A stretch of DNA of 64,000 bases, from the NCBI RefSeq assembly GCF_004336805.1, contig NZ_SJXM01000016.1:1-64000 (forward strand), given 5' to 3'. Shown piece by piece: positions 7,968-58,969 of the stretch (position 1 is its first letter; each line of letters starts with the position of its first letter). The notes beneath the pieces are model-generated. The model saw only the letters and a program-made list of their open reading frames with translations, searched no databases and was not told where the DNA came from. The DNA is from Aeromicrobium sp. IC_218. GTDB taxonomy: Bacteria; Actinomycetota; Actinomycetes; Propionibacteriales; Nocardioidaceae. The translations under genes and the position numbers were made by a program.

Positions 7968-8282
7968 CTAGACGCTGCGGCCGATGGCGTCGGCGAACAG
8001 GACCTGCTTGTAGCGGGGCTCCTGGGTGGTCTGGTCGGTCCAGGTCTCGGTGATGATCGCCCCGGTGACGATGACCTTCTCCCCTGACTGCAGGTCGCTC
8101 GCTCGGGTGGCGAGGGTCTTGAACGTCTTGACGGTGTAGCGGGTGGTGTCGCTGTTGGACCACTCGCCCGACTCGGTGTCCTGGGTCCGGCGGTTGGTCA
8201 GGACGACGAGCTCGGTGAGGTTGTCGAAGACCTGCGGGGCCTGGGCCAAGCGGCCTTCGATGGTGACGGTGCTGGTGAACAT
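7968..8282 (-). CDS. ssb: Single-stranded DNA-binding protein (plasmid type, short)
   Basis: A 104-residue OB-fold protein: MFTSTVTIEGRLAQAPQVF, then VVLTNRRTQDTESGEW, TTRYTVKTFKTLATRASDL, SGEKVIVTGAIITETWTDQ, ending in FADAIGRSV. This is an SSB core without the usual disordered acidic C-terminal tail that recruits partner proteins, so it is shorter than chromosomal SSB. It has a good AGGAG ribosome site. It is last in a leftward group with the 63-residue protein. Plasmid-encoded SSB commonly protects incoming single strands after conjugation. Confidence 0.85.
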   Translation of the reverse strand: MFTSTVTIEGRLAQAPQVFDNLTELVVLTNRRTQDTESGEWSNSDTTRYTVKTFKTLATRASDLQSGEKVIVTGAIITETWTDQTTQEPRYKQVLFADAIGRSV

Positions 8283-8324
8283 GACGTACTCCTTCTTGGT
8301 GATAGTGCTGGGGTAAGCGGGTGG

Positions 8325-8516
8325 TCAGTGGGTGGTCGGCTCGGTGAGCGTGTCGATCGCTTCGGTGAGCCGGGTGCGGGCTAGGGTCAGGGCCTCGACG
8401 GCGAGGTCGTCCATGTGGACCTGGGCGGCGAATCCGCCATTGCCGATCTCACTGCGGGCTTGCTCGAGGAGGCTCTCGACGTGCTCGCGGTTGCTGGTGT
8501 GAGTGGTGGTGGCCAT
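8325..8516 (-). CDS. Small hypothetical protein (63 aa)
   Basis: The product begins MATTTHTSNREHVESLLEQA, is predicted mainly helical, and contains a DDLAVEALTLARTRLTEAID segment. I do not recognise a family. GGGGGA lies upstream at suitable distance. It is 42 bp upstream of ssb in the same direction and is the first gene after one copy of the repeated hairpin-rich leader, so it is probably co-transcribed with ssb. Confidence 0.6.
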   Translation of the reverse strand: MATTTHTSNREHVESLLEQARSEIGNGGFAAQVHMDDLAVEALTLARTRLTEAIDTLTEPTTH

Positions 8517-8539
8517 GAGCGGCGTCCCCCTTCTGTCGG

Positions 8540-8790
8540 TGCGGTGGGCCGTTGGAACGTCTGCCCGTCCCAACCGTTCTTCGCCCCCTCCCGGCAAGAG
8601 AGATCAGCGGCCGCCAGGGAGCGCGGAGCGTCAACCCGTAGGGCAACGCCGGCGTGCTGGTCGTGAGGAGATAAGCGACCGCAGGGAGCGCCGACCGGGC
8701 CGCACGCCGGTGGGGTCCCCGCAGGGGATTGCGTGGAGCGCGGGCGGCCGAAGATGGAACGATCGGGAGGGGTACGAAGCTGCTCGTCGA
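8540..8790 (-). repeat. Repeated leader, copy A (upstream of the 63-aa gene/ssb)
   Basis: This is homologous to 10190-10425 in the same orientation relative to the downstream gene. Blocks shared almost exactly are, on the plus strand, CGTCTGCCCGTCCC-ACCGTTCTTCGCCCC, GGAGCGTCAACCCGTAGGG, GTGAGGAGAT-AGCGA, GAGCGCCGA, TTGCGTG and ATGGAACG. The minus strand reads GGGTTGACGCTCCGC, a -35-like TTGACG in both copies. Confidence 0.7.
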
Positions 8791-9004
8791 GCTCGAGCCC
8801 GGCCCGCAGGCCGGCCCGTTGCGTGGCCGCATGCGGCCACGGGTGCTGACGCCGGCCTGCACGGCCGGCACCAGGTGGCGCCGGCCTCCGTGACGGCTCC
8901 ACTCCGTTAGCGGTCGAGGCGGCGCGAGACGATCCGACCGTGTCCAAGTACGACGCGCTGTTCGAGCATCTGAGCTGGCCGGCCGCCCTCCGTGGCGGAC
9001 GGTG

Positions 9005-9041
9005 CCCGGTGGTCGGTCCGCTGTGCGGGCCGACCACCGGG
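9005..9041 (-). terminator. Long hairpin downstream of the 82-aa gene
   Basis: CCCGGTGGTCGG pairs perfectly with CCGACCACCGGG; a T/G opposition and an inner CCGC/GCGG stem extend it, with a TGT loop. It begins 12 bp after the stop of the leftward 82-residue gene, so it is probably the terminator of the ardC operon. It can also be seen as part of structured leader A. Confidence 0.65.
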
Positions 9042-9052
9042 TGCGCGTGCGA

Positions 9053-9301
9053 CTAGGCGACGTCGGCCTGACAAGCCTGCATCCGCCTCGTGATCGCCGT
9101 GACGTAGGCCGGACCGAGAGCGCGGCACCAGTCGCAGGTGACGGCGGACCAGCGGCCGGGGCGGCCGAACGTCAGGTGGTCGCCGAAGGACAGGGCCTCT
9201 ACTAGGTCGGCCCGGCACGCGAGGGTCATGTTGGGCAGGACGACGTGCGTGCTGCTGGCGGCATCGGTGCCGAAGTCGAGCACGCCCTGAGCGCCGTTCA
9301 T
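9053..9301 (-). CDS. Small hypothetical protein with CxxC (82 aa)
   Basis: The product starts MNGAQGVLDFGTDAASSTH. The middle has LTFGRPGRWSAVTCDWCRAL, a CxxC pair that could bind metal, and the C-terminal end is TRRMQACQADVA. I do not recognise the family. Its ATG overlaps the ardC stop (ATGA), so it is translated with ardC, and a long hairpin follows. It may be an antirestriction or leading-region partner; this rests on position only. Confidence 0.6.
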   Translation of the reverse strand: MNGAQGVLDFGTDAASSTHVVLPNMTLACRADLVEALSFGDHLTFGRPGRWSAVTCDWCRALGPAYVTAITRRMQACQADVA

Positions 9302-10164
9302 GCGATCGCCTCGGCCGGCTCGAACGCGGCCGCCAGGACGTGCACGGCTCGGGTGACGTTGTCGGCGCACTGGCGGATCAGGTCGAGGTCTCCCCCGGAC
9401 CATCCGGCGACGTAGCCGACGCTGTAGGCGCTGGTGTCGACGCCGAGCAGCCCGGCCGTGACGTAGGCGACGGACTCGGCTTCGGTCTCCTTGGTGCCGC
9501 GGTGGGCGATGTACTCCCCCGGCTCGTCGTCGGTGTGCAGGATGACGTGCCCGGCTTCGTGCAGGGCGGTCTTCGCGGCGGCGGCGGGCTCGAGCCGGTT
9601 GTCGACGACGACGCGGCGGCTGCCGTCGGTGGTGGTGTAGCCGTTGGCGCCTCCGACGACGGGCTCGACGGTGAGCGTCCAGCCCTGGGCGGCGAGCCAC
9701 GCGGTGACGGTGTCGGTGATGCCGTGCGGGTCGTCGCCGGTGAGCAGACGGGCGGGGTTCTCGATCTGCTCGACGCCGTCGATGGGGTCGGTCTGGTCGA
9801 CGTCGAACACGGTCAGGATCGGGAAGCGCGGCACGCGGCGCTCGGTCTCTCCCCCGGCCTCGTCCTCGGTGGTGATCTTCTTGGTGCTGTAGCCGAAGAT
9901 CCGGATGCCCTTCTCTCCCTTGCGGACCTGGCGGCCGCGCTGGTGCCACTGGCGGAAGCCGGCGACCTGGGACGCCTCGGGCCGCTGGGCGAGGATCAGC
10001 AGGAGGTTGTTCAGGCTGTAGGTGTGGAACGTGGCCGCGACCTGCAGGAACCGCTTCCAGCCTTCGCTGGTGGTCAACGCTTCGACCTGCTCGGCGAGGG
10101 TGTTGTGCAGGGCCTCGACCTCGGCGCGACGCTGCTCGGGGCTCTTGGTCTGACGCTTGCTCAT
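9298..10164 (-). CDS. ardC: ArdC-like antirestriction protein (ssDNA-binding domain plus zinc metallopeptidase)
   Basis: A 288-residue protein. Residues 15-125 match the ArdC N-terminal ssDNA-binding domain (GWKRFLQVAATFHTYSLNN, QVAGFRQWHQRGRQVRKGEK, GIRIFGYSTKK). Residues 195-240 hold a gluzincin site, ALHEAGHVILH (HExxH-type at 202-206), and a downstream acidic helix ETEAESVAYVTAGLLG. ArdC proteins protect incoming plasmid DNA from host restriction during conjugation. The start at 10164 has GGGGGAGAGG upstream. It is preceded by the second copy of the repeated structured leader, as expected for a gene expressed early after transfer. Confidence 0.85.
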   Translation of the reverse strand: MSKRQTKSPEQRRAEVEALHNTLAEQVEALTTSEGWKRFLQVAATFHTYSLNNLLLILAQRPEASQVAGFRQWHQRGRQVRKGEKGIRIFGYSTKKITTEDEAGGETERRVPRFPILTVFDVDQTDPIDGVEQIENPARLLTGDDPHGITDTVTAWLAAQGWTLTVEPVVGGANGYTTTDGSRRVVVDNRLEPAAAAKTALHEAGHVILHTDDEPGEYIAHRGTKETEAESVAYVTAGLLGVDTSAYSVGYVAGWSGGDLDLIRQCADNVTRAVHVLAAAFEPAEAIA

Positions 10165-10189
10165 CGTGTGCTGCCTCTCCCCCGGAGCG

Positions 10190-10425
10190 CTGGGCCGCCG
10201 GTGACGTCTGCCCGTCCCGACCGTTCTTCGCCCCTCCTGGGCAAGGGGCATGAATGGCGGCCGTGGAGCAGCGGAGCGTCAACCCGTAGGGGCGCTCGGG
10301 TGGGCAATCGGTGAGGAGATCAGCGAGTTTGCGAGCGCCGAGCCGATTGGTCGCCCGGGCGACGGCGGAGACGTTGCGTGCAGCTGCGGGCCGCCGATCA
10401 TGGAACGGCCAGGAGGAAGCGAACT
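10190..10425 (-). repeat. Repeated leader, copy B (upstream of ardC)
   Basis: This is the partner of copy A at 8540-8790. It keeps the same order of conserved blocks, including GTCTGCCCGTCCCGACCGTT, GGAGCGTCAACCCGTAGGG, GGTGAGGAGATCAGCGA and ATCATGGAACGGC. It ends about 25 bp before the ardC start, as copy A ends about 25 bp before the 63-aa gene. Confidence 0.7.
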
Positions 10426-10960
10426 CTTTCCAATGCCCGCGCCGGCTAAGCCGGTCCCGTTTCTCGGTCCGCTCTGCGGGACCGTCTATGTCGACTTGTG
10501 AGCCGGGTCCCGGCGCTCGGAGATCATGTCGGGCGGGCCGCTAGCAATGCTTCGAGTCGGCCACTGGCGACGCGGGCGCTCCACTTTCGCGCACTTCGGG
10601 TTGCGCGCTAGACCTTCAGTCGAACTCTCGGGTCCTCGCTGAATCGCGTGTGAGGCGCTTTCAGGGCACGCGCGGACCCTGGGGCCCGCCGGGCGCTCCG
10701 AGGGGCGGAGACGCCAGCCTGGTCGTTTCTGGAGGGCTCCCAGGTTCTTCGCGGACCTGAACTGGACCGCTCAATCTCCATTACCGGTGCCATAGCGGCA
10801 ACGTGACGGCACACGCGGTCACGCGGCGACACGGAGTGGCGCGGTCCCGAACGGGTTTTCACAATACGTCTCGCGTTGCCTCGGCTAGTCTCAACTCCGC
10901 CGGGCGCGACACGCGCCGAATCAGCACGGCACGACGCGTCACATTCTCTACAGTGATTCC

Positions 10961-10980
10961 GCAGGCGCGCACACGCCTGC
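10961..10980. repeat. Inverted repeat upstream of parA
   Basis: GCAGGCG-CGCACA-CGCCTGC has perfect 7-bp arms. It lies 118 bp before the parA start. It could be an operator or part of a partition site. Confidence 0.45.
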
Positions 10981-11041
10981 ACGAGACGGATCAATCCACG
11001 GCGAGACGAGACCTGACGACACGGCGGAGTGGAAGCCGCGA

Positions 11042-11060
11042 CGTATTGCGTCGCGATACG
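11042..11060. promoter_or_regulatory. Palindrome just upstream of parA
   Basis: CGTATTGCG-T-CGCGATACG matches in 8 of 9 arm positions. It lies 37 bp before the parA start and is a candidate site for autoregulation by ParA or its partner, or a parS-like site. Confidence 0.5.
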
Positions 11061-11097
11061 ACTTCGTTCTTCCCCGCGCTCGAGAGAAAGGCATGAC

Positions 11098-12243
11098 ATG
11101 AGCGGTCCCCAGTTTCACCAGGTGACTCATCCAGACTTTGAGGGCGTCGACTTCGATCGCCTGCAGGTTGTGCTGGCGGTGATGGCGCAGAAGGGCGGCG
11201 TCGGCAAGACGACGTTGGCGACGAACCTTGCCGGTCTGGCTGCGACGCGTGGTGACAGGGTGCTGCTGGTCGACCTCGACCCTCAGGGCAACGTCCGCGA
11301 TGAGTTGGGTTTGTACGACCACGAGCACAACGACGCTGGCGAGGCGCTGCGCGAGGCAATCCTCGCCGGTGAATCAATCGAGCAGCTCGCGCTTGAGGTC
11401 CGACCGCGCCTGGACGTGGCGATTGGCGGCATTAACACTCGCGCGATCTCCGATGTGCTGGTGCGGGAGAAGAACGACGAGATGCTCGCGCAGCTGGCCG
11501 AGGCCGGCTACGAGGTGCCCGCGCCCGAGGCGGGGGAGTGGCGGCGGATCGTCTATGACCTGCCTGAGGAGATCGATTTCTCACCGGCCTACCACGGACG
11601 GCTGGCCTTGGCGCTTGACCGCACACTCGCTGCCGCCGAGACTGCTGGCGACCCGTACGGCCTGGTGGTCATCGACTCCCCCCCCAACGAGCGGGAGATC
11701 CAACTGAACATCATGGGGGCGGCTCGCTGGGTGGTTTCGCCGACGATGCCGGATTTCGGGTCGATTCGTGCGGTGACCGAAATCATCGATATGGCCGCGG
11801 CGACCGAGGATGGGGCGCACCAGGTCGACATGCTCGGTGTCGTGCTGTCCGGAGTCACCGACCACACGCGCAACATCAAGCGGACCGCGATCGACGCGAT
11901 CGAGGCGGCGACGCGTTCTCAAACGTTCAAGGCGCAGGTGCCGGGCCGTCCTGGCGAGTACGAAGAGGTGCCGCTGGTGCTCGGGCCGACGGTTCGATGG
12001 TCGACCGCGACCGCGCAGCTTGCACGCAGCAAGGGCAAGCTCGTCTATGAGGTCGCCGATGAGCACGAGCAGCGTCAGCCTTGGTACGAGCAGGTCCGGG
12101 CTGGAGCCAAGAGCGCCGGGCCCGTCGCGTCCGGCGCGGTCGGGATGGCCGCCGACATCATGGATGTCGCCACCGAGATCTTCCACCGGATGCCGAGCTA
12201 CGCCTTCGATAAGGCTGACTACATGGAGGAAGCGGATGTCTGA
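11098..12243 (+). CDS. parA: ParA-family partition ATPase
   Basis: A 381-residue ATPase. The deviant Walker A KGGVGKTT is at residues 32-39 (VVLAVMAQKGGVGKTTLATN), switch I follows in LVDLDPQGN, and the Walker B region is GLVVIDSPPNEREIQ. It is longer than small ParA proteins because of an insertion between residues 75 and 170, and has no N-terminal helix-turn-helix. The start at 11098 has AAAGG 6 nt upstream; in-frame codons further upstream do not look coding. The downstream gene overlaps by 8 bp, so the two form a partition operon for stable plasmid inheritance. Confidence 0.9.
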   Translation: MSGPQFHQVTHPDFEGVDFDRLQVVLAVMAQKGGVGKTTLATNLAGLAATRGDRVLLVDLDPQGNVRDELGLYDHEHNDAGEALREAILAGESIEQLALEVRPRLDVAIGGINTRAISDVLVREKNDEMLAQLAEAGYEVPAPEAGEWRRIVYDLPEEIDFSPAYHGRLALALDRTLAAAETAGDPYGLVVIDSPPNEREIQLNIMGAARWVVSPTMPDFGSIRAVTEIIDMAAATEDGAHQVDMLGVVLSGVTDHTRNIKRTAIDAIEAATRSQTFKAQVPGRPGEYEEVPLVLGPTVRWSTATAQLARSKGKLVYEVADEHEQRQPWYEQVRAGAKSAGPVASGAVGMAADIMDVATEIFHRMPSYAFDKADYMEEADV

Positions 12244-25646: not shown

Positions 25647-25924
25647 CAGCCGACCTGAGGCGGGGAGCCAGCCTTCAGACGCGGTCCCGATGCCACGACG
25701 GCCACGCCGCCGGGGGAGGGACGACCGGCCGAGTACGCTCGATTTCACGTTTCCGGAAAGGAATAGTCCGGTCGTCGGCCGGCGCCGAGGATGGCACGAA
25801 GCGTGGGAAGCAATTCCAGGTCTGGGGCATCTCAACTCGGATTTCAGGCTAGTCACCTCTCTACGGAGGTTGTCTGGCAGGACGACTCCTGGGGTCTCGG
25901 CAGCAAAGCATTAGAAGCGCAGCG
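25647..25924. other. 278-bp junction between cargo and T4SS region
   Basis: No gene seen. A perfect TTTCCGGAAA (25750-25759) lies inside a wider inverted repeat GACGACCGG (25720-25728) / CCGGTCGTC (25768-25776). This could terminate the LacI gene or be a recombination remnant. Confidence 0.4.
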
Positions 25925-35764: not shown

Positions 35765-37549
35765 ATGGTCCGCCGCAGCCGCGTTGATCCGGCCCGCAAC
35801 AACGACGACGTGACCCTGGTCGCCGCCGGCGTCGCCTTCCTCGTCCTGGCCTGGGTCGGGACCTGGGCGAGCCTGCAGGCCACGGGTCAGGACGCCTCGC
35901 TGAACCCGGGCAAGCTCGCCGTGCAGGTGAAGCGCGGCGACGTCGCGTGGACCGAAGCTACCACCTGGTGGGCCGCGGCGATCGCCGGCGGACTCTCCGT
36001 GGCGGTCGCCGCCATCGCGCTGTTGCTGCGCCTGGTGCGTGGCAAGCGGGTCGAGGTCGACGCCGCCGGCTCCCACATGGCCACGCGGCGAGACATCGAG
36101 CCGCTGACCCGCAAGCAGGTCACCCGCACCGCCCGCAAGCTCACCGCCAGCGCCGACGCGATCGGCCTCCCTCTGGGCTACCACCTGCCGTCCAAGGCGC
36201 GGGTGTGGTCGACGTGGGAGGACATGCTGCTGCTCATCGCTGGGCCTCGGACGATGAAGTCGTCCTCGTACGTCATCCCGCTGGCGCTGGCAGCGCCAGG
36301 CGCCTGCTTCATCACCGAGAACAAGCGCGGCGTCCTGGACCACACGCGCGGGCCCCGCGCCACCAAGGGACAGGTGTGGGTCTTCGACCCTCAGGCCGTC
36401 GGAGGTGAGGAGCCCACCTGGTGGTGGAACCCACTGTCCTACGTCACCGACGAGACCAGCGCGGAGAAGCTGGCCGCGCAGATCGCCGAGTCCACCCGCG
36501 AGCCCGGGCGCGGCGATGCCTACTTCGACAACGAAGCGGTCAACCTGCTGCACCTGCTCCTGCTCGCGGCCGCGAGCGAGGGCGAGCCCATCACGACCGT
36601 CTACACGTGGCTGACCGAACCGACCGACACCCACCCGGTCCGCGTACTCGACCGAGCCGGCTACCGGGCCCAGGCCGAGTCGCTGGAGGCACTGGCCATG
36701 CTGACCGACAAGCAGCGTGACGGCGTGTACGGGTCCGCGCGGGCCCTGGTCGGCTTCCTGCGGAACCGCCAGATGATGCGGTGGGTGACGCCGCCAGCGA
36801 CGCCGGGCGTGGCTGAGTTCGACCCGCACGCGTACGTGCGCTCGAGCGACACCCTGTACGCGCTGTCCCACGACGGCAAGACCTCCGCCGGTCCGCTCGT
36901 CGGTGCGCTGACCTTGGCGGTCTTCGACGCCGCCGAGAAGTACGCCACCAGCTGCGCCGGCGGCCGCCTCCCGACCCCGCTGGTCGGGCTGCTCGACGAA
37001 GCTGCGAACGTCTGCCGGTTCAAGGATCTGGACTCCAAGTACAGCCACTACGGCTCCCGCGGAATCATTATGATGACGGTGCTGCAGTCCTGGGACCAGG
37101 GCGAGGAGATCTGGGGCCGTCACGGCATGGAGAAGCTGTGGTCGGCCGCGAACATCAAGGTCTACGGCGGTGGCGTCTCCGACACCCGCTTCCTGCAGCG
37201 CCTGTCCGACCTCATCGGCCCCTACGAGCACCTGACCGGCACGACGTCGTCGGGCCGGGGTGGACGCTCACGCTCCCGATCGGTGACGGAGCGACCGATC
37301 CTGTCCGTCGCCGAGCTCGGAGCGCTGCCACGGCGTCGCGCCGTGGTGATCGCCTCGGGCATCCGGCCGATGCTGCTCAAGGTCGTGCCCTGGTTCGCCC
37401 AGGACAAGACGACGCGCGAACAGGTCGAGCTCTCGCTGGCCACCAACACCCCGGCGCCGGCACCCGACCAGCCGGCCGTGCCCGTGGCCGCGTCGAGCAC
37501 GCCGACCGCGGACGCCGACCGGTGGCGCACGACCGGGTTCGGCGCATGA
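35765..37549 (+). CDS. Type IV coupling protein (VirD4/TraG-like, TraM-recognition domain)
   Basis: A 594-residue protein with two N-terminal membrane helices (residues 17-36 and 67-90). The ATPase domain has a modified P-loop AGPRTMKSSS (residues 159-168), TENKRGVLDHTR and VWVFDPQAVGGEEPTWWWNP, the Walker B LVGLLDEAANVCRF, and HYGSRGIIMMTVLQSWDQGE. These are the conserved features of VirD4/TraG coupling ATPases in Gram-positive conjugation, including the deviant GPRxxKS P-loop. It links the relaxosome formed at oriT to the channel. Confidence 0.9.
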   Translation: MVRRSRVDPARNNDDVTLVAAGVAFLVLAWVGTWASLQATGQDASLNPGKLAVQVKRGDVAWTEATTWWAAAIAGGLSVAVAAIALLLRLVRGKRVEVDAAGSHMATRRDIEPLTRKQVTRTARKLTASADAIGLPLGYHLPSKARVWSTWEDMLLLIAGPRTMKSSSYVIPLALAAPGACFITENKRGVLDHTRGPRATKGQVWVFDPQAVGGEEPTWWWNPLSYVTDETSAEKLAAQIAESTREPGRGDAYFDNEAVNLLHLLLLAAASEGEPITTVYTWLTEPTDTHPVRVLDRAGYRAQAESLEALAMLTDKQRDGVYGSARALVGFLRNRQMMRWVTPPATPGVAEFDPHAYVRSSDTLYALSHDGKTSAGPLVGALTLAVFDAAEKYATSCAGGRLPTPLVGLLDEAANVCRFKDLDSKYSHYGSRGIIMMTVLQSWDQGEEIWGRHGMEKLWSAANIKVYGGGVSDTRFLQRLSDLIGPYEHLTGTTSSGRGGRSRSRSVTERPILSVAELGALPRRRAVVIASGIRPMLLKVVPWFAQDKTTREQVELSLATNTPAPAPDQPAVPVAASSTPTADADRWRTTGFGA

Positions 37550-54215: not shown

Positions 54216-55883
54216 TTATCGTCCGTGCCCCTGGTCGCGACCGTCGCGACCAGTTCGCTGTCGTGCACGCTGCGGACCGAGCTGGTTCGGCATCGGCGGC
54301 TTGGCCGGATCGCCGGGCTCGGGGCGAGTGCCCCGCTGGGCGTCGGCGACCTTCTGTGCCGTGGCGCGTTCGCCGGCGGCCTTGAGGTCGGCCGCGACGG
54401 CCACCCGCGCCGTCGTCTCATCGCCGTACCCGGTCAACGGGATTCGCTGCAGGCGCTCCAGCGCACGCGTGCGCAGAACCTCCGCCTCAGCAAGGTGCTT
54501 CATCGACACCTGCCGATCGTGCAGCGCCTTGACCGCTCCGAACACCTGGCGGGCCATGAGCGTGCCGGCGACCTTGCCCTTGCCGTCGGTCCGGGTCTGC
54601 AGCAGCACGACCGCCGCACCCAACGTCGACGACGACGGGCGCCGATGCGGGACGCCGGCACGACGGACCTGCGCCGATCGCGCGACCTGCTCGGCCGCGG
54701 CGTTCAGCTCATCCCGGTTCTCGGTGTCGAACCGGGCCCACGCCGACAGGGCACCCGACACGTCCCGGGCTGCGTCCGACCAGGCGACGTCGTCGCCCAG
54801 CGGGATCGACTTCAGCTGGTCGTTGAAGTCCGCCAGCCACCGGGCCGCGTTCACCGGCGCCTGCGGGGTCAGGGTCATGTCGTCGGGTCCACCACGGAGC
54901 GCCGGCGCCTGGCCCTTGGCCGCCGCCGTCCACTCCGCAGCCGCGGCCGCGGAGCTCTCCAAGGTCGGCTCGGCGAAGTGCTCGCGCACGCGGGGCAGCG
55001 ACAGGTCCTTGCCTAGGCGACCGCCGCCGTAGAACACCAGCCGCTCGTTGTAGTCCTCGGGCTTCAACGCCGCCTTGTAGCCGGTGACGACGTCGGTCGT
55101 GCCCTTCGCGTAGTACGGCTTGAGCACGACACCGGCCTTGCGCACGCGCCTGATCCACTCGTCCTCGCTCTGCGACGCGACGGCCGCGGACCGGATGCGG
55201 TGGGCGAGCTCGACTGGAGCGGTGTGCGGCATCCCCGCCCGCTCGGCCTGGGCCAGCTCGGCCGGCTTCGCGCCCCGGGCGCCGAGGCCCGCTTCGCGGC
55301 CAGCGACGGCGGCCAGCCCGTACTTGCGCTCGATCGAGCGGCACGCCTCCTGCGCCCGGCGGTAGTCCCCGTATCGGCCGTCCCACCGGGTGCCGTCCTC
55401 ACGGACCATCGACGCCGCGATGTGGATGTGGTCGTTGCCGCGCTTGGACGTGCCGTGGTGGATCGCGACCCACCGCGCCGGCGCCTTCCCCGACGCCTCG
55501 GTGAACCCCATCTCGTCCATGAAGTCCGCCGCGATCGCGCGCCACTCATCGTCCGACACGGTCCGGTCGTCGACGGGCAGGGACAGCGAGCAGTGCCAGA
55601 CGTGCTGGTCGCGGTAGCCGACCACCACCCGCTCGTCGGTCTCCGGGTCGACCGCCGTCACCTGCGATCGGATCTCCGTGCCCCAGTGCTGACGCGGCTG
55701 CTCGAGGAAGTCCGAGATCTCCCCGGCAGCGTCCGCGTTCAGCTCCTCGCTGCCGTGCCACGCGAGCAGGAAGTCGTCGCCGCCGATCACGTGCGGGTTG
55801 GTGTGCTCGTTCTCTCGACCTGGTCCGGCGAGGTAGCGCAGCAGGCCGCGCATGTCGCCGCCCTTGACCACGTTCGGGATCAC
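54216..55883 (-). CDS. Relaxase (MOBP-type mobilisation nuclease)
   Basis: A 555-residue protein. The N-terminal third is the relaxase domain: MIPNVVKGGDMRGLLRYLAG, an N-terminal segment without the usual catalytic Tyr near residue 20-25 other than Tyr17, HCSLSLPVDDRTVS, and the three-His site HHGTSKRGNDHIHIAAS (residues 142-158). The rest is helical and charged, ending in a basic tail. It nicks oriT and leads the strand to the coupling protein. The GTG at 55883 overlaps the mobC stop (GTGA). Confidence 0.88.
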   Translation of the reverse strand: MIPNVVKGGDMRGLLRYLAGPGRENEHTNPHVIGGDDFLLAWHGSEELNADAAGEISDFLEQPRQHWGTEIRSQVTAVDPETDERVVVGYRDQHVWHCSLSLPVDDRTVSDDEWRAIAADFMDEMGFTEASGKAPARWVAIHHGTSKRGNDHIHIAASMVREDGTRWDGRYGDYRRAQEACRSIERKYGLAAVAGREAGLGARGAKPAELAQAERAGMPHTAPVELAHRIRSAAVASQSEDEWIRRVRKAGVVLKPYYAKGTTDVVTGYKAALKPEDYNERLVFYGGGRLGKDLSLPRVREHFAEPTLESSAAAAAEWTAAAKGQAPALRGGPDDMTLTPQAPVNAARWLADFNDQLKSIPLGDDVAWSDAARDVSGALSAWARFDTENRDELNAAAEQVARSAQVRRAGVPHRRPSSSTLGAAVVLLQTRTDGKGKVAGTLMARQVFGAVKALHDRQVSMKHLAEAEVLRTRALERLQRIPLTGYGDETTARVAVAADLKAAGERATAQKVADAQRGTRPEPGDPAKPPMPNQLGPQRARQRTGRDGRDQGHGR

Positions 55884-56347
55884 GAGGCCGACTCCTGACC
55901 GGACGCGGGGGAGGGGAGCGGACGGTCCAGGTCGTCGAGCAGCTGCTCGAGCCGGACCATCACTCGACCGTGCGCGGCGATCGCCGCGGCGGTCTCCGGC
56001 TGGGCCTCCAGGGTCGCGTTCGTGACCCGCGCGATCTGGTTGATGTTCACGCCGACCTTGCCCACCAGGCGGGCCACTCGGTACAGCTCGCCGATCATCT
56101 CCGCACGCAGCTTCGCCGCGTCCGCACCACCGGCCAGAGCCGACTCCACGAGCAGCCTGGGCACCGTCACGTTGCGCTCCGCCGCGCGCTCGAGCAGACG
56201 CTCCTCCTGCTCCGCGGTCACCTTCACCTTGTGCTGGATCGGGCGCGGGGCACCGGGCTTGCGGACCTGCCGCACACCCGGCCGAACACGCTCCCCAGAG
56301 CGGGCCGGCACGGCCCCCTCGGACGCGTCGCGACGCTCCTCAGCCAT
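55880..56347 (-). CDS. MobC-like relaxosome accessory protein
   Basis: A 155-residue protein. A disordered basic N-terminus (residues 1-40) precedes a ribbon-helix-helix-like segment (HKVKVTAEQEERLLERAAER, NVTVPRLLVESALAG) and the MobC motif region RVARLVGKVGVNINQIARVT. Such proteins bind oriT and help the relaxase nick. ATG at 56347 is chosen with GGGGGAA upstream. The gene begins next to the palindromic region at 56447-56724. Confidence 0.87.
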   Translation of the reverse strand: MAEERRDASEGAVPARSGERVRPGVRQVRKPGAPRPIQHKVKVTAEQEERLLERAAERNVTVPRLLVESALAGGADAAKLRAEMIGELYRVARLVGKVGVNINQIARVTNATLEAQPETAAAIAAHGRVMVRLEQLLDDLDRPLPSPASGQESAS

Positions 56348-56838
56348 CGCAGTTCCCCCGATCTTCACGCCCAGCGCAGCGAGCCCGCCAGGGCAGTTCC
56401 ACACCCCAAGTGTGGCAGGCCTCGACCGGCAGGTCTAGGCCAAGAGCGCACAAGGCGCCCTTGTGCATTAGCTTGCTCCCGCTCACACGCCGCGCGACGC
56501 CGCCGCACGGCAGCCCGCACTCGCTTTCGCGGGATCGCCCAACGGGCGATCAGCAAGGCGCTACGCGCGGTGTTCTCCCGACCTGCGGTCGGGCACCGAC
56601 CCCCGCCCCCGAAGCCGAACATTCTGACGCGCCGCTCCCACCCGTCAAGGACAAGCGCTGCGGCCTCCGGCCGTCCTTGACGGGTGCTCGCCGGCGCATG
56701 TTCGGCATCTATCGGGGGCGGGGGTTGGTGTGGCCAGGCGGTCACTTCAAGCCTCATGGCTGGGTCCGTCTACCGGCTTCCGTCACCGAGTCAGAAGCGG
56801 GCCGCGAGCGGCCCGACGACCGAACGAAGGAGAGCACC
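56348..56838. other. 491-bp non-coding oriT candidate region
   Basis: The region lies between mobC (leftward) and the gene at 56839 (rightward). Hairpins in order: GCACAAGG-CGC-CCTTGTGC (56447-56465), GATCGCCC-AAC-GGGCGATC (56533-56551), CCCGACC-TGC-GGTCGGG (56577-56593), then a nested inverted repeat (56600-56724). This density and the position upstream of mobC/relaxase fit the origin of transfer. The nic site cannot be named from sequence. Confidence 0.7.
56600..56724. repeat. 125-bp nested inverted repeat (oriT core candidate)
   Basis: Four paired blocks are nested around one centre: CCCCCGCCCCCGA (56600-56612) with TCGGGGGCGGGGG (56712-56724); CCGAACAT (56615-56622) with ATGTTCGG (56698-56705); GCGCCG (56629-56634) with CGGCGC (56692-56697); CACCCGTCAAGGAC (56639-56652) with GTCCTTGACGGGTG (56673-56686). 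All arms are perfect. The 20-nt centre is 56653-56672. Confidence 0.85.
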
Positions 56839-58299: not shown

Positions 58300-58315
58300 T
58301 ACGCTGCGGCTCGTG
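58300..58315 (+). promoter_or_regulatory. Leaderless promoter -10 box (second paralogue)
   Basis: TACGCT again ends 7 nt before the GTG at 58313, and the surrounding 24 bp equal those at 57633. Confidence 0.6.
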
Positions 58316-58969
58316 CGCCTCGAAGACCTCACATGCAACATTCTCAACACCAGCAACCCGGACTTCTCGTGTCAGATCGACGGCTCGATCTGGTCGGTCG
58401 ATCTGGCCATCGCCGTCGTCTCCGCGTTCATCGGTGCGGGGGCGACCCTCGCCGCCGTCTGGTTCACACTCAGCCACCAGAGGGAGGCTGACGCAAGGCA
58501 GAGGGCGCACGAGCGCAAGATCGATGCGGAGGCGCGGGCAACTCAGATCGAGCAGGACCGCCGTCTACGGCAGGAGCGGCTGGACGACGAGAAGCTCCAC
58601 CTGCTCAGGCAGCAATCGTTGGGGCGATCAGAGGAGGCTCGGGAGTTGGGGAAGCGATTGGGCGACGGCACGCTCACACGGACGGAGGTCTCCTTCTTCG
58701 TTCAGGGGGTGGCCGTGCTCATGGGCGGAATCGGTGAGTTTGAGCCCGAGACGGCCGATCTCCTCAGCCTCGCAGTGCGCAAGGTCAGCAGGAACAAGGG
58801 ACCCGTCGACCCCGTGATGAAGTCGGAGGCCCTGCGCTGCGGCTTGCTCAACCTCCAGCTCCTGCTGGAGATCCGCGCGATCGCGCCCAACCGACTGCCC
58901 GCAGCTGTGGGGAGGCAAGAGCAAGCCCGCTCGGCAATCGAGCGAGACCTGCCCTTCATCGAGGACTAG
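58313..58969 (+). CDS. Membrane-anchored coiled-coil protein, tandem paralogue 2
   Basis: A 218-residue protein. An external N-terminus with a conserved TC.I segment and a second Cys precedes a membrane helix (LAIAVVSAFIGAGATLAAVW), a long Arg/Glu-rich helix (SHQREADARQRAHERKIDAE, RRLRQERLDDEKLHLLRQQS) and a helical domain (VSFFVQGVAVLMGGIGEFEP). It is paralogous to the preceding gene in start, leader and topology, but the cytoplasmic domains have diverged. Function unknown. Confidence 0.65.
   Translation: MRLEDLTCNILNTSNPDFSCQIDGSIWSVDLAIAVVSAFIGAGATLAAVWFTLSHQREADARQRAHERKIDAEARATQIEQDRRLRQERLDDEKLHLLRQQSLGRSEEARELGKRLGDGTLTRTEVSFFVQGVAVLMGGIGEFEPETADLLSLAVRKVSRNKGPVDPVMKSEALRCGLLNLQLLLEIRAIAPNRLPAAVGRQEQARSAIERDLPFIED

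Follow-up and report, generated by a model that had tools for sequence, protein, structure and literature searches.

The closest described counterparts of the leaders considered here are Frpo1 and Frpo2 of plasmid F and the ssi relatives of ColIb-P9: hairpins that form on the entering strand, rebuild a -35/-10 promoter, occur as dispersed copies and use the transferred strand (T-strand) as template, as described in the passages of PMC9849209 that deal with them. Single-strand promoters have so far been described for F-like and I-type plasmids of gut bacteria. The leading region of F, according to its annotation, carries ssb, ParB-like, DUF932 and antirestriction genes. In Bacillus, EGeRS1 of pLS20 is a long structured repeat that stands before ardC and other establishment operons and prevents read-through (relevant sections of PMC8708921), and EGeRS2 of p576 is a repeated control region of establishment genes, again including ardC. 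We analyzed two repeated leaders, copies A and B, that precede ssb and ardC in a 64,000-nucleotide stretch of Aeromicrobium sp. IC_218 (the window; positions 1–64,000 of contig NZ_SJXM01000016.1).

The Frpo features listed above recur, as far as can be predicted, in these leaders, and the same kinds of gene as in the F leading region follow them. We consider it probable that the leaders are single-stranded-DNA promoters that work by folding, in the manner of Frpo, on the entering T-strand. They differ from F in belonging to another phylum and to G+C-rich DNA, in lacking blastn similarity and in lying farther from the nick site (nic); ardC, DUF4192 and DUF3560 genes would also be driven here, and function has been shown for F, whereas here it is predicted. 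Published surveys, as their search descriptions state, used BLAST with known Frpo sequences plus a consensus search in four gene islands (PMC11541004), or BLAST with known Frpo sequences and re-use of the candidates of PMC11541004 (PMC12826799); the term Actino is absent from the main text of PMC11541004. Searches aimed at an actinobacterial or Gram-positive single-strand promoter found no description of one in an open-access library that lacks most subscription journals and preprints.

A covarying hairpin leader and its plasmid family

Copies A and B align in the same orientation over about 220 bp, with 161 identities, 55 mismatches and 9 gap letters. A sequence-only reading had placed a same-orientation repeat of about 230 bp before a 63-amino-acid (aa) open reading frame (ORF) paired with ssb and before ardC, and this holds over the aligned span (8550–8770 and 10197–10416): the genes lie on the - strand, with Pfam SSB and ArdcN matches. 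Copy A as query recovers copy B in its own genome (E = 9.6e-26), and CCCTACGGGTTGACGCTCC occurs exactly twice in the window versus 0.03 times expected from shuffles. The features of the two leaders are as follows.

8550–8770, + strand (template of the 63-aa ORF and ssb): copy A, a hairpin and candidate single-strand promoter, from covariance models R1 and R2 and covariation
8587–8593, + strand: 5′ arm CCTCCCG of the copy A base stem, partner CGGGAGG at 8764–8770
8729–8734, + strand: candidate -35 of copy A, TTGCGT, in the upper stem; the partner arm holds CGTCAA at 8629–8634
8750–8755, + strand: candidate -10 of copy A, GAAGAT, spacer 15; positions 2 and 3 unpaired in the fold
10197–10416, + strand (template of ardC): copy B, a hairpin and candidate single-strand promoter, from covariance models R1 and R2 and DNA fold
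10233–10240, + strand: 5′ arm CCTCCTGG of the copy B base stem, partner CCAGGAGG at 10409–10416
10374–10379, + strand: candidate -35 of copy B, TTGCGT; partner arm with CGTCAA at 10278–10283
10396–10401, + strand: candidate -10 of copy B, GATCAT, spacer 16; -11A (position 2) is the sole unpaired base of the hexamer

Each leader is a single long imperfect hairpin. The plan is readily followed in a third copy from the same genome, outside the window (contig C11, 122786–123002, before a short ParB-like ORF), where the + strand reads, 5′ to 3′, base-stem arm CCTCCTGGGC, a gap, an upper-stem arm with CGTCAA, a variable tip, an upper-stem arm starting TTGCGT, the -10 GATCAT, a gap and base-stem arm GCCCAGGAGG. 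Contig C11 is 419.6 kb long, and the copy on it is possibly a remnant of an integrated plasmid. The TTGACG box noted previously in both window copies is a real sequence of the leaders but not their -35; it is complementary to the template arm whose pairing partner, allowing for a bulge, is the actual -35, TTGCGT. Two of the three TTG letters of the -35 are paired in the fold of copy A itself. The DNA fold of copy B has a z score of -4.87, with none of 200 shuffles equally stable.

Covariation bears out this structure. Across 30 pairs in 18 sequences, 94.6% of cells are paired, compared with 75.0% after shuffling (score 0.485 versus 0.174), and 18 of the 30 stem pairs have changed on both sides. 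With 37 distinct rows the values are 93.7% and 71.2%, and sliding the partner by one column lowers pairing to 39–47%. Folded with DNA parameters, the strand that we take below to be the T-strand is more stable than the coding strand in 21 of 23 copies and then in 8 of 9 further ones, and G·T wobble cells, counted over pairs predicted from both strands, number 13 on the T-strand and 4 on the coding strand. An early fold with a side hairpin was dropped for the base-stem model once Nocardioides copies had joined the alignment.

Several features lie at the edges of this hairpin. At the tip (e.g., 10300–10345 of the window), a GAGGAAATAAGCGAGCTTGCGAGCGCCGATC-like block is kept in many copies though the surrounding tip varies; it is perhaps an AT-rich upstream element or a priming site. 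Just past the base stem (8551–8580 and 10199–10230), a small second hairpin, GTTGG/CCAAC in ssb copies and GGTCGGC/GCCACC in Nocardioides, seems by eye to vary in step and would fall in the 5′ part of the transcript. The 20-bp palindrome previously reported after copy A exists (8822–8841), as do other inverted repeats near 8792–9041; they lie outside the conserved hairpin, and the palindrome is not part of the element.

The leaders are members of a dispersed plasmid family found in Aeromicrobium, Nocardioides, Tessaracoccus and another family of the order. The sequence-only reading had proposed to look for conservation on other plasmids, and homologues of the leaders occur on many of them. Covariance model R1, built from eight copies, found members in 12 of the 294 genomes searched in the family, with as many as five on Nocardioides contigs. 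Model R2, built from 18 copies, had hits in 10 of the 293 genomes searched in the order; among these are plasmid NZ_CP019608 of Tessaracoccus flavescens and a genome of the other family (G364, three copies). In a phylum sample the model matched one of 149 genomes, namely Aeromicrobium sp. IC_218 itself. A pattern scan of genome contigs gave eight loci, all in Aeromicrobium or Nocardioides. A. massiliense has three copies, before ssb, ardC and a ParB-like ORF, and the A. yanjiei plasmid has two, before an intact DUF4192 gene and before a short ORF resembling its start. The first genes after the copies encode SSB, ArdC or ArdC/IrrE-like, ParB-like (ParB_N), DUF932, DUF3560, DUF4192 and non-Pfam proteins. 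No Rfam family reached the gathering threshold for the leader; blastn of a Nocardioides leader and a G364 leader against plasmids gave no matches, and blastn of copy A against a collection including plasmid F gave no similarity to F. Two Nocardioides alkalitolerans contigs (L077, L080) start within a leader copy, as if the repeats break short-read assemblies.

Promoter-like hexamers and the putative transferred strand

The 3′ arm of the hairpin, on the inferred T-strand, carries a sigma-70-like pattern: TTG(C/A)(G/C)N, mostly 16 nucleotides (nt), then (C/G)AnnAT. Among the 30 homology-found copies with both hexamers complete (8 of 38 rows without a complete six-letter hexamer were left out), 22 have a spacer of 16 nt, and within the -10, position 2 is A in 29, position 5 is A in 26 and position 6 is T in every copy. 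For the 34 rows longer than 150 nt, a TTG/-10 pair at 15–17 nt is present in 29 T-strand arms and in none of the 34 mirror arms. We then took the minimum-energy folds of the 29 rows with a TTG/nAnnnT pair. The TTG of the -35 is wholly paired in 23, a base stem of at least 7 pairs follows the -10 in 25, and -11A is unpaired in 25, compared with 2, 12, 10, 11 and 5 for the other five -10 positions. During promoter opening, sigma flips out the -11A to initiate melting. An arrangement with the whole -10 in a loop was dropped, the folds showing mainly -11A unpaired. In a folded promoter the hexamers would direct transcription towards the gene; in duplex DNA they face the opposite way.

Which strand enters the recipient depends on the position of the nick. 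The candidate site is the following.

56448–56476, + strand: putative origin of transfer (oriT) core; inverted repeat at 56448–56466, then ATTAGCTTG^CTCC, with the nick guessed to lie between 56475 and 56476

All nine MOBP plasmids listed share a layout upstream of mobC or of the relaxase gene: an inverted repeat, its sequence varying between plasmids, precedes a box that ends in CTTGCTC; the boxes were compared by eye, and nic positions were taken for eight plasmids. In IncP, nic is CTATCCTG^C, and because of the resemblance to this site we placed the nick within the CTTGCTC box. The + strand of the window would therefore be the T-strand, leaving away from the relaxase. When only R2 matches scoring 40 bits or more are counted, the eight plasmids have 20 homology-found copies, of which 19 lie on the putative T-strand; of the four weaker matches set aside, two are also on the T-strand and two on the opposite strand next to nic. 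The entering strand would therefore be the template of the downstream gene. The distance from putative nic to the copies ranges from 3.4 kb (G364) to more than 20 kb.

Taken together, these elements suggest the following mechanism. As the T-strand enters the recipient, the leader would fold into a long hairpin whose upper stem holds the -35 (TTGCGT, TTGACC, etc.), with the -10 (GATCAT, CAGAAT, etc.) mostly 16 nt further on and -11A unpaired. The base stem immediately after the -10 would make the structure mimic a promoter at the onset of opening. The host RNA polymerase with its main sigma factor would then bind and transcribe off the base of the hairpin into the adjoining T-strand, which would there be the template of ssb, ardC, parB-like, DUF932 or DUF4192 genes. 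If transcription does proceed from the entering strand, protective proteins would therefore be made before a second strand exists. Conversion to double-stranded DNA would remove the hairpin and leave hexamers facing away from the gene. Binding by the polymerase, the start site and the timing are predicted elements of this scheme, as is the nick and hence the T-strand. The suggestion that the leaders are an actinobacterial equivalent of Frpo, made in the sequence-only reading, is well supported by this anatomy: conservation, a covarying hairpin, hexamers, an unpaired -11A and template orientation relative to putative nic.

Architecture scans and competing explanations

A scanner was built on the architecture itself (TTG, 15–17 nt, nAnnnT, upstream pairing of that arm and a base stem), having been designed after the first copies were known. 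On nine plasmids (573,793 bases) it gave 28 sites at -34 or better versus 1.0 in a Markov null and 0 in reversed sequence, and 21 sites at -38 versus 0.2 and 0; the null was regenerated first-order sequence in 400-nt windows and not an exact shuffle. The G209 contig, the end of which repeats its start, was cut at 72,400 in this count; coverage was 75,000 of 77,148 bases for A. massiliense (G012) and 80,000 of 81,517 for G209. New sites appeared before ssb on four Nocardioides contigs and on the A. yanjiei plasmid. Of 30 scanner sites, 20 are on the putative T-strand.

The unchanged scanner was also applied to 12 other actinobacterial plasmid stretches, chosen from ArdC or ParB matches. Five of the 12 have an intergenic site (-34 or better) on the template strand of the next gene, a sixth (JS614) has a site inside an annotated gene and six have none; the reversed control gave one site. 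Among the six stretches fetched last, one has a fitting site. Miniimonas has one additional site at the -34 level, inside a gene. The scanner also finds the architecture on a Xylanimonas plasmid (Micrococcales), whose two leaders (TTGCGC, spacer of 16 nt, GATCAT, base stem CCTCCTGGCT/AGCCAGGAGG) are close to the window copies; the nick-like box of this plasmid (27241) and both leaders are on the - strand, in keeping with the T-strand rule. The whole plasmid has a third site, at 25841, on the other strand and with no fitting gene. As a control, a relaxed scanner was run on 20,001 bp of F, where it gave one outstanding hit (-63.3, T-strand, TTGCAT-15 nt-TAAGAT, before an antirestriction gene). 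This hairpin, which is very stable, lies at 56525 (-) of F plasmid NC_002483, with the gene at 56755, and is not at Frpo1 or Frpo2. Those two regions (58307–58626, named Frpo2, and 63696–64011, named Frpo1, by position following the account in PMC9849209 of their location) are 85% identical in alignment. The F control supports the architecture; the scanner is not validated on the two proven promoters.

Several observations weigh against a folded promoter on the entering strand. The nick position and the identity of the T-strand derive from a motif. One homologous copy (G209 C21:30127) is on the other strand, as are 10 of the 30 scanner sites; 7 of these are at most 0.6 kb from nic, and the remaining three are G209 63899 (before ssb), G209 30290 and G228 16244. 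Measured along the path of entry, copy A would be about 21.4 kb and copy B about 23.0 kb behind putative nic, a greater distance than that of Frpo in F. Five of 34 copies break the -35/-10 rule. Copy A alone folds with a z score of only -1.38, with 14 of 200 shuffles as stable, and in the two ssb copies the coding-strand fold is slightly more stable. The shuffles behind the covariation values ignore relatedness, and the structure was derived from the same alignments. The scanner misses homologous copies (own ssb, -27.3; A. yanjiei, -31.9 and -32.9) and does not list the T. flavescens copy; on F, the relaxed scanner does not list Frpo1, and its score for the Frpo2 region, which precedes ssb, is -26.2 and does not beat that of the reversed control (-27.4).

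Against this background we weighed three other explanations. The leader may act as RNA in the manner of EGeRS1, forming a structured 5′ untranslated region or an attenuator within a longer transcript, since pLS20 has long structured repeats before establishment genes including ardC (portions of PMC8708921) and the transcript of the present leaders can form the same hairpin. An RNA leader, however, has no use for fixed-spacing hexamers confined to the T-strand arm or for an unpaired -11A, and the wobble pairs favor the T-strand. Moreover, in the account of EGeRS1 given in PMC8708921, the transferred strand is the non-template strand and no promoter is recognized in the fold; here we infer the reverse on both points. 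We regard the RNA explanation as improbable. A strictly duplex function, with the leaders serving a single plasmid regulon as ordinary double-strand promoters or as operators, would account for the regulon-like look of dispersed copies before several operons and would resemble EGeRS2. But EGeRS2 contains a strong conventional promoter (according to passages of PMC8708921), whereas a consensus scan of 8200–11100, which covers both leaders, found no sigma-70-like double-strand promoter, although real actinobacterial promoters can deviate from consensus; in addition, the stems vary in sequence and still pair, which sets them apart from an operator bound by a protein. This explanation we consider very improbable.

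The hairpins could instead be single-strand initiation (ssi) or single-strand origin (sso) sites at which RNA polymerase primes second-strand synthesis, their proximity to genes being secondary. A 1997 paper reportedly found that Frpo also primes DNA synthesis, and an sso is said to be known in ICEBs1. On the other hand, the copies stand before the start codons of particular genes, often several per plasmid, which is more than priming needs, and as a replacement for promoter function this explanation appears quite improbable. A priming role is compatible with the single-strand promoter that we favor, and the two are not exclusive.

Hairpin P, the surrounding plasmid and wider meaning

A further structure, hairpin P, lies beside putative nic.

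56585–56745, - strand (retained strand): hairpin P, folded-promoter-like; -35 TTGACG at 56648–56643, -10 CAGAAT at 56626–56621

The hexamers of hairpin P are spaced as TTGACG-N16-CAGAAT, 0.1–0.3 kb after putative nic, and its DNA fold has an energy of -62 kcal/mol (z -7.85). A similar hairpin on the other strand lies at most 0.6 kb from nic in six of eight MOBP plasmids (the present one, A. massiliense, A. yanjiei, G228, G263 and G249). In A. yanjiei and G228 the gene after this hairpin is ssb; in the present plasmid it is an 81-aa ORF that matches no Pfam family. The conserved block 56579–56823 had been considered as oriT and was dropped: it is the folded-promoter-like hairpin itself, and a better nic candidate lies nearer mobC. 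Hairpin P may be a donor-side switch, or an oriT structure that resembles one by chance. A more extended, doubtful possibility is that there are two strand-specific sets of folded promoters, one on the T-strand, to be read in the recipient, and another next to nic on the retained strand, where the start of transfer would expose it first on the donor side. If so, strand separation itself would activate genes in both partners, without a regulator.

The window belongs to a contig of 69,434 bp. Because both contig ends share 127 identical bases, the contig very probably represents a circular plasmid some 69.3 kb in size. It encodes a MOBP relaxase, a MobC/NikA-like protein and a type IV secretion system (T4SS) coupling protein, and its relatives are found in Aeromicrobium, namely in A. 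massiliense JC14 and as the A. yanjiei plasmid (NZ_CP045736; G048). The genes concerned are as follows.

7968–8282, - strand: ssb (Pfam SSB, E 9e-11)
8325–8516, - strand: 63-aa ORF between copy A and ssb, also present in A. massiliense; no Pfam family matched
9298–10164, - strand: ardC (Pfam ArdcN, E 3e-16)
35765–37549, + strand: T4SS coupling protein of TraG/VirD4 type
54216–55883, - strand: MOBP relaxase (Pfam Relaxase)
55880–56404, - strand: MobC/NikA-like gene; the likelier start is the ATG at 56347

A second, partial ssb-like stretch occurs in the same genome on contig C7 (66698–66913, - strand); over 72 aa it is 87.5% identical to the window ssb.

If the leaders are indeed folded promoters, Actinomycetota would possess a structurally equal family without detectable sequence similarity to that of F, and the use of the entering strand for gene expression would have arisen, or spread, well outside the enterobacteria. 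The architecture also provides a search rule for early genes—a hairpin, TTG-N16-nAnnAT, an unpaired -11A and a base stem—with which such genes could be recognized on plasmids of Gram-positive soil and industrial bacteria; as yet unnamed candidates among them include the DUF4192 and DUF932 proteins. It would further make testable the proposal that actinobacterial RNA polymerase starts transcription on folded single strands.

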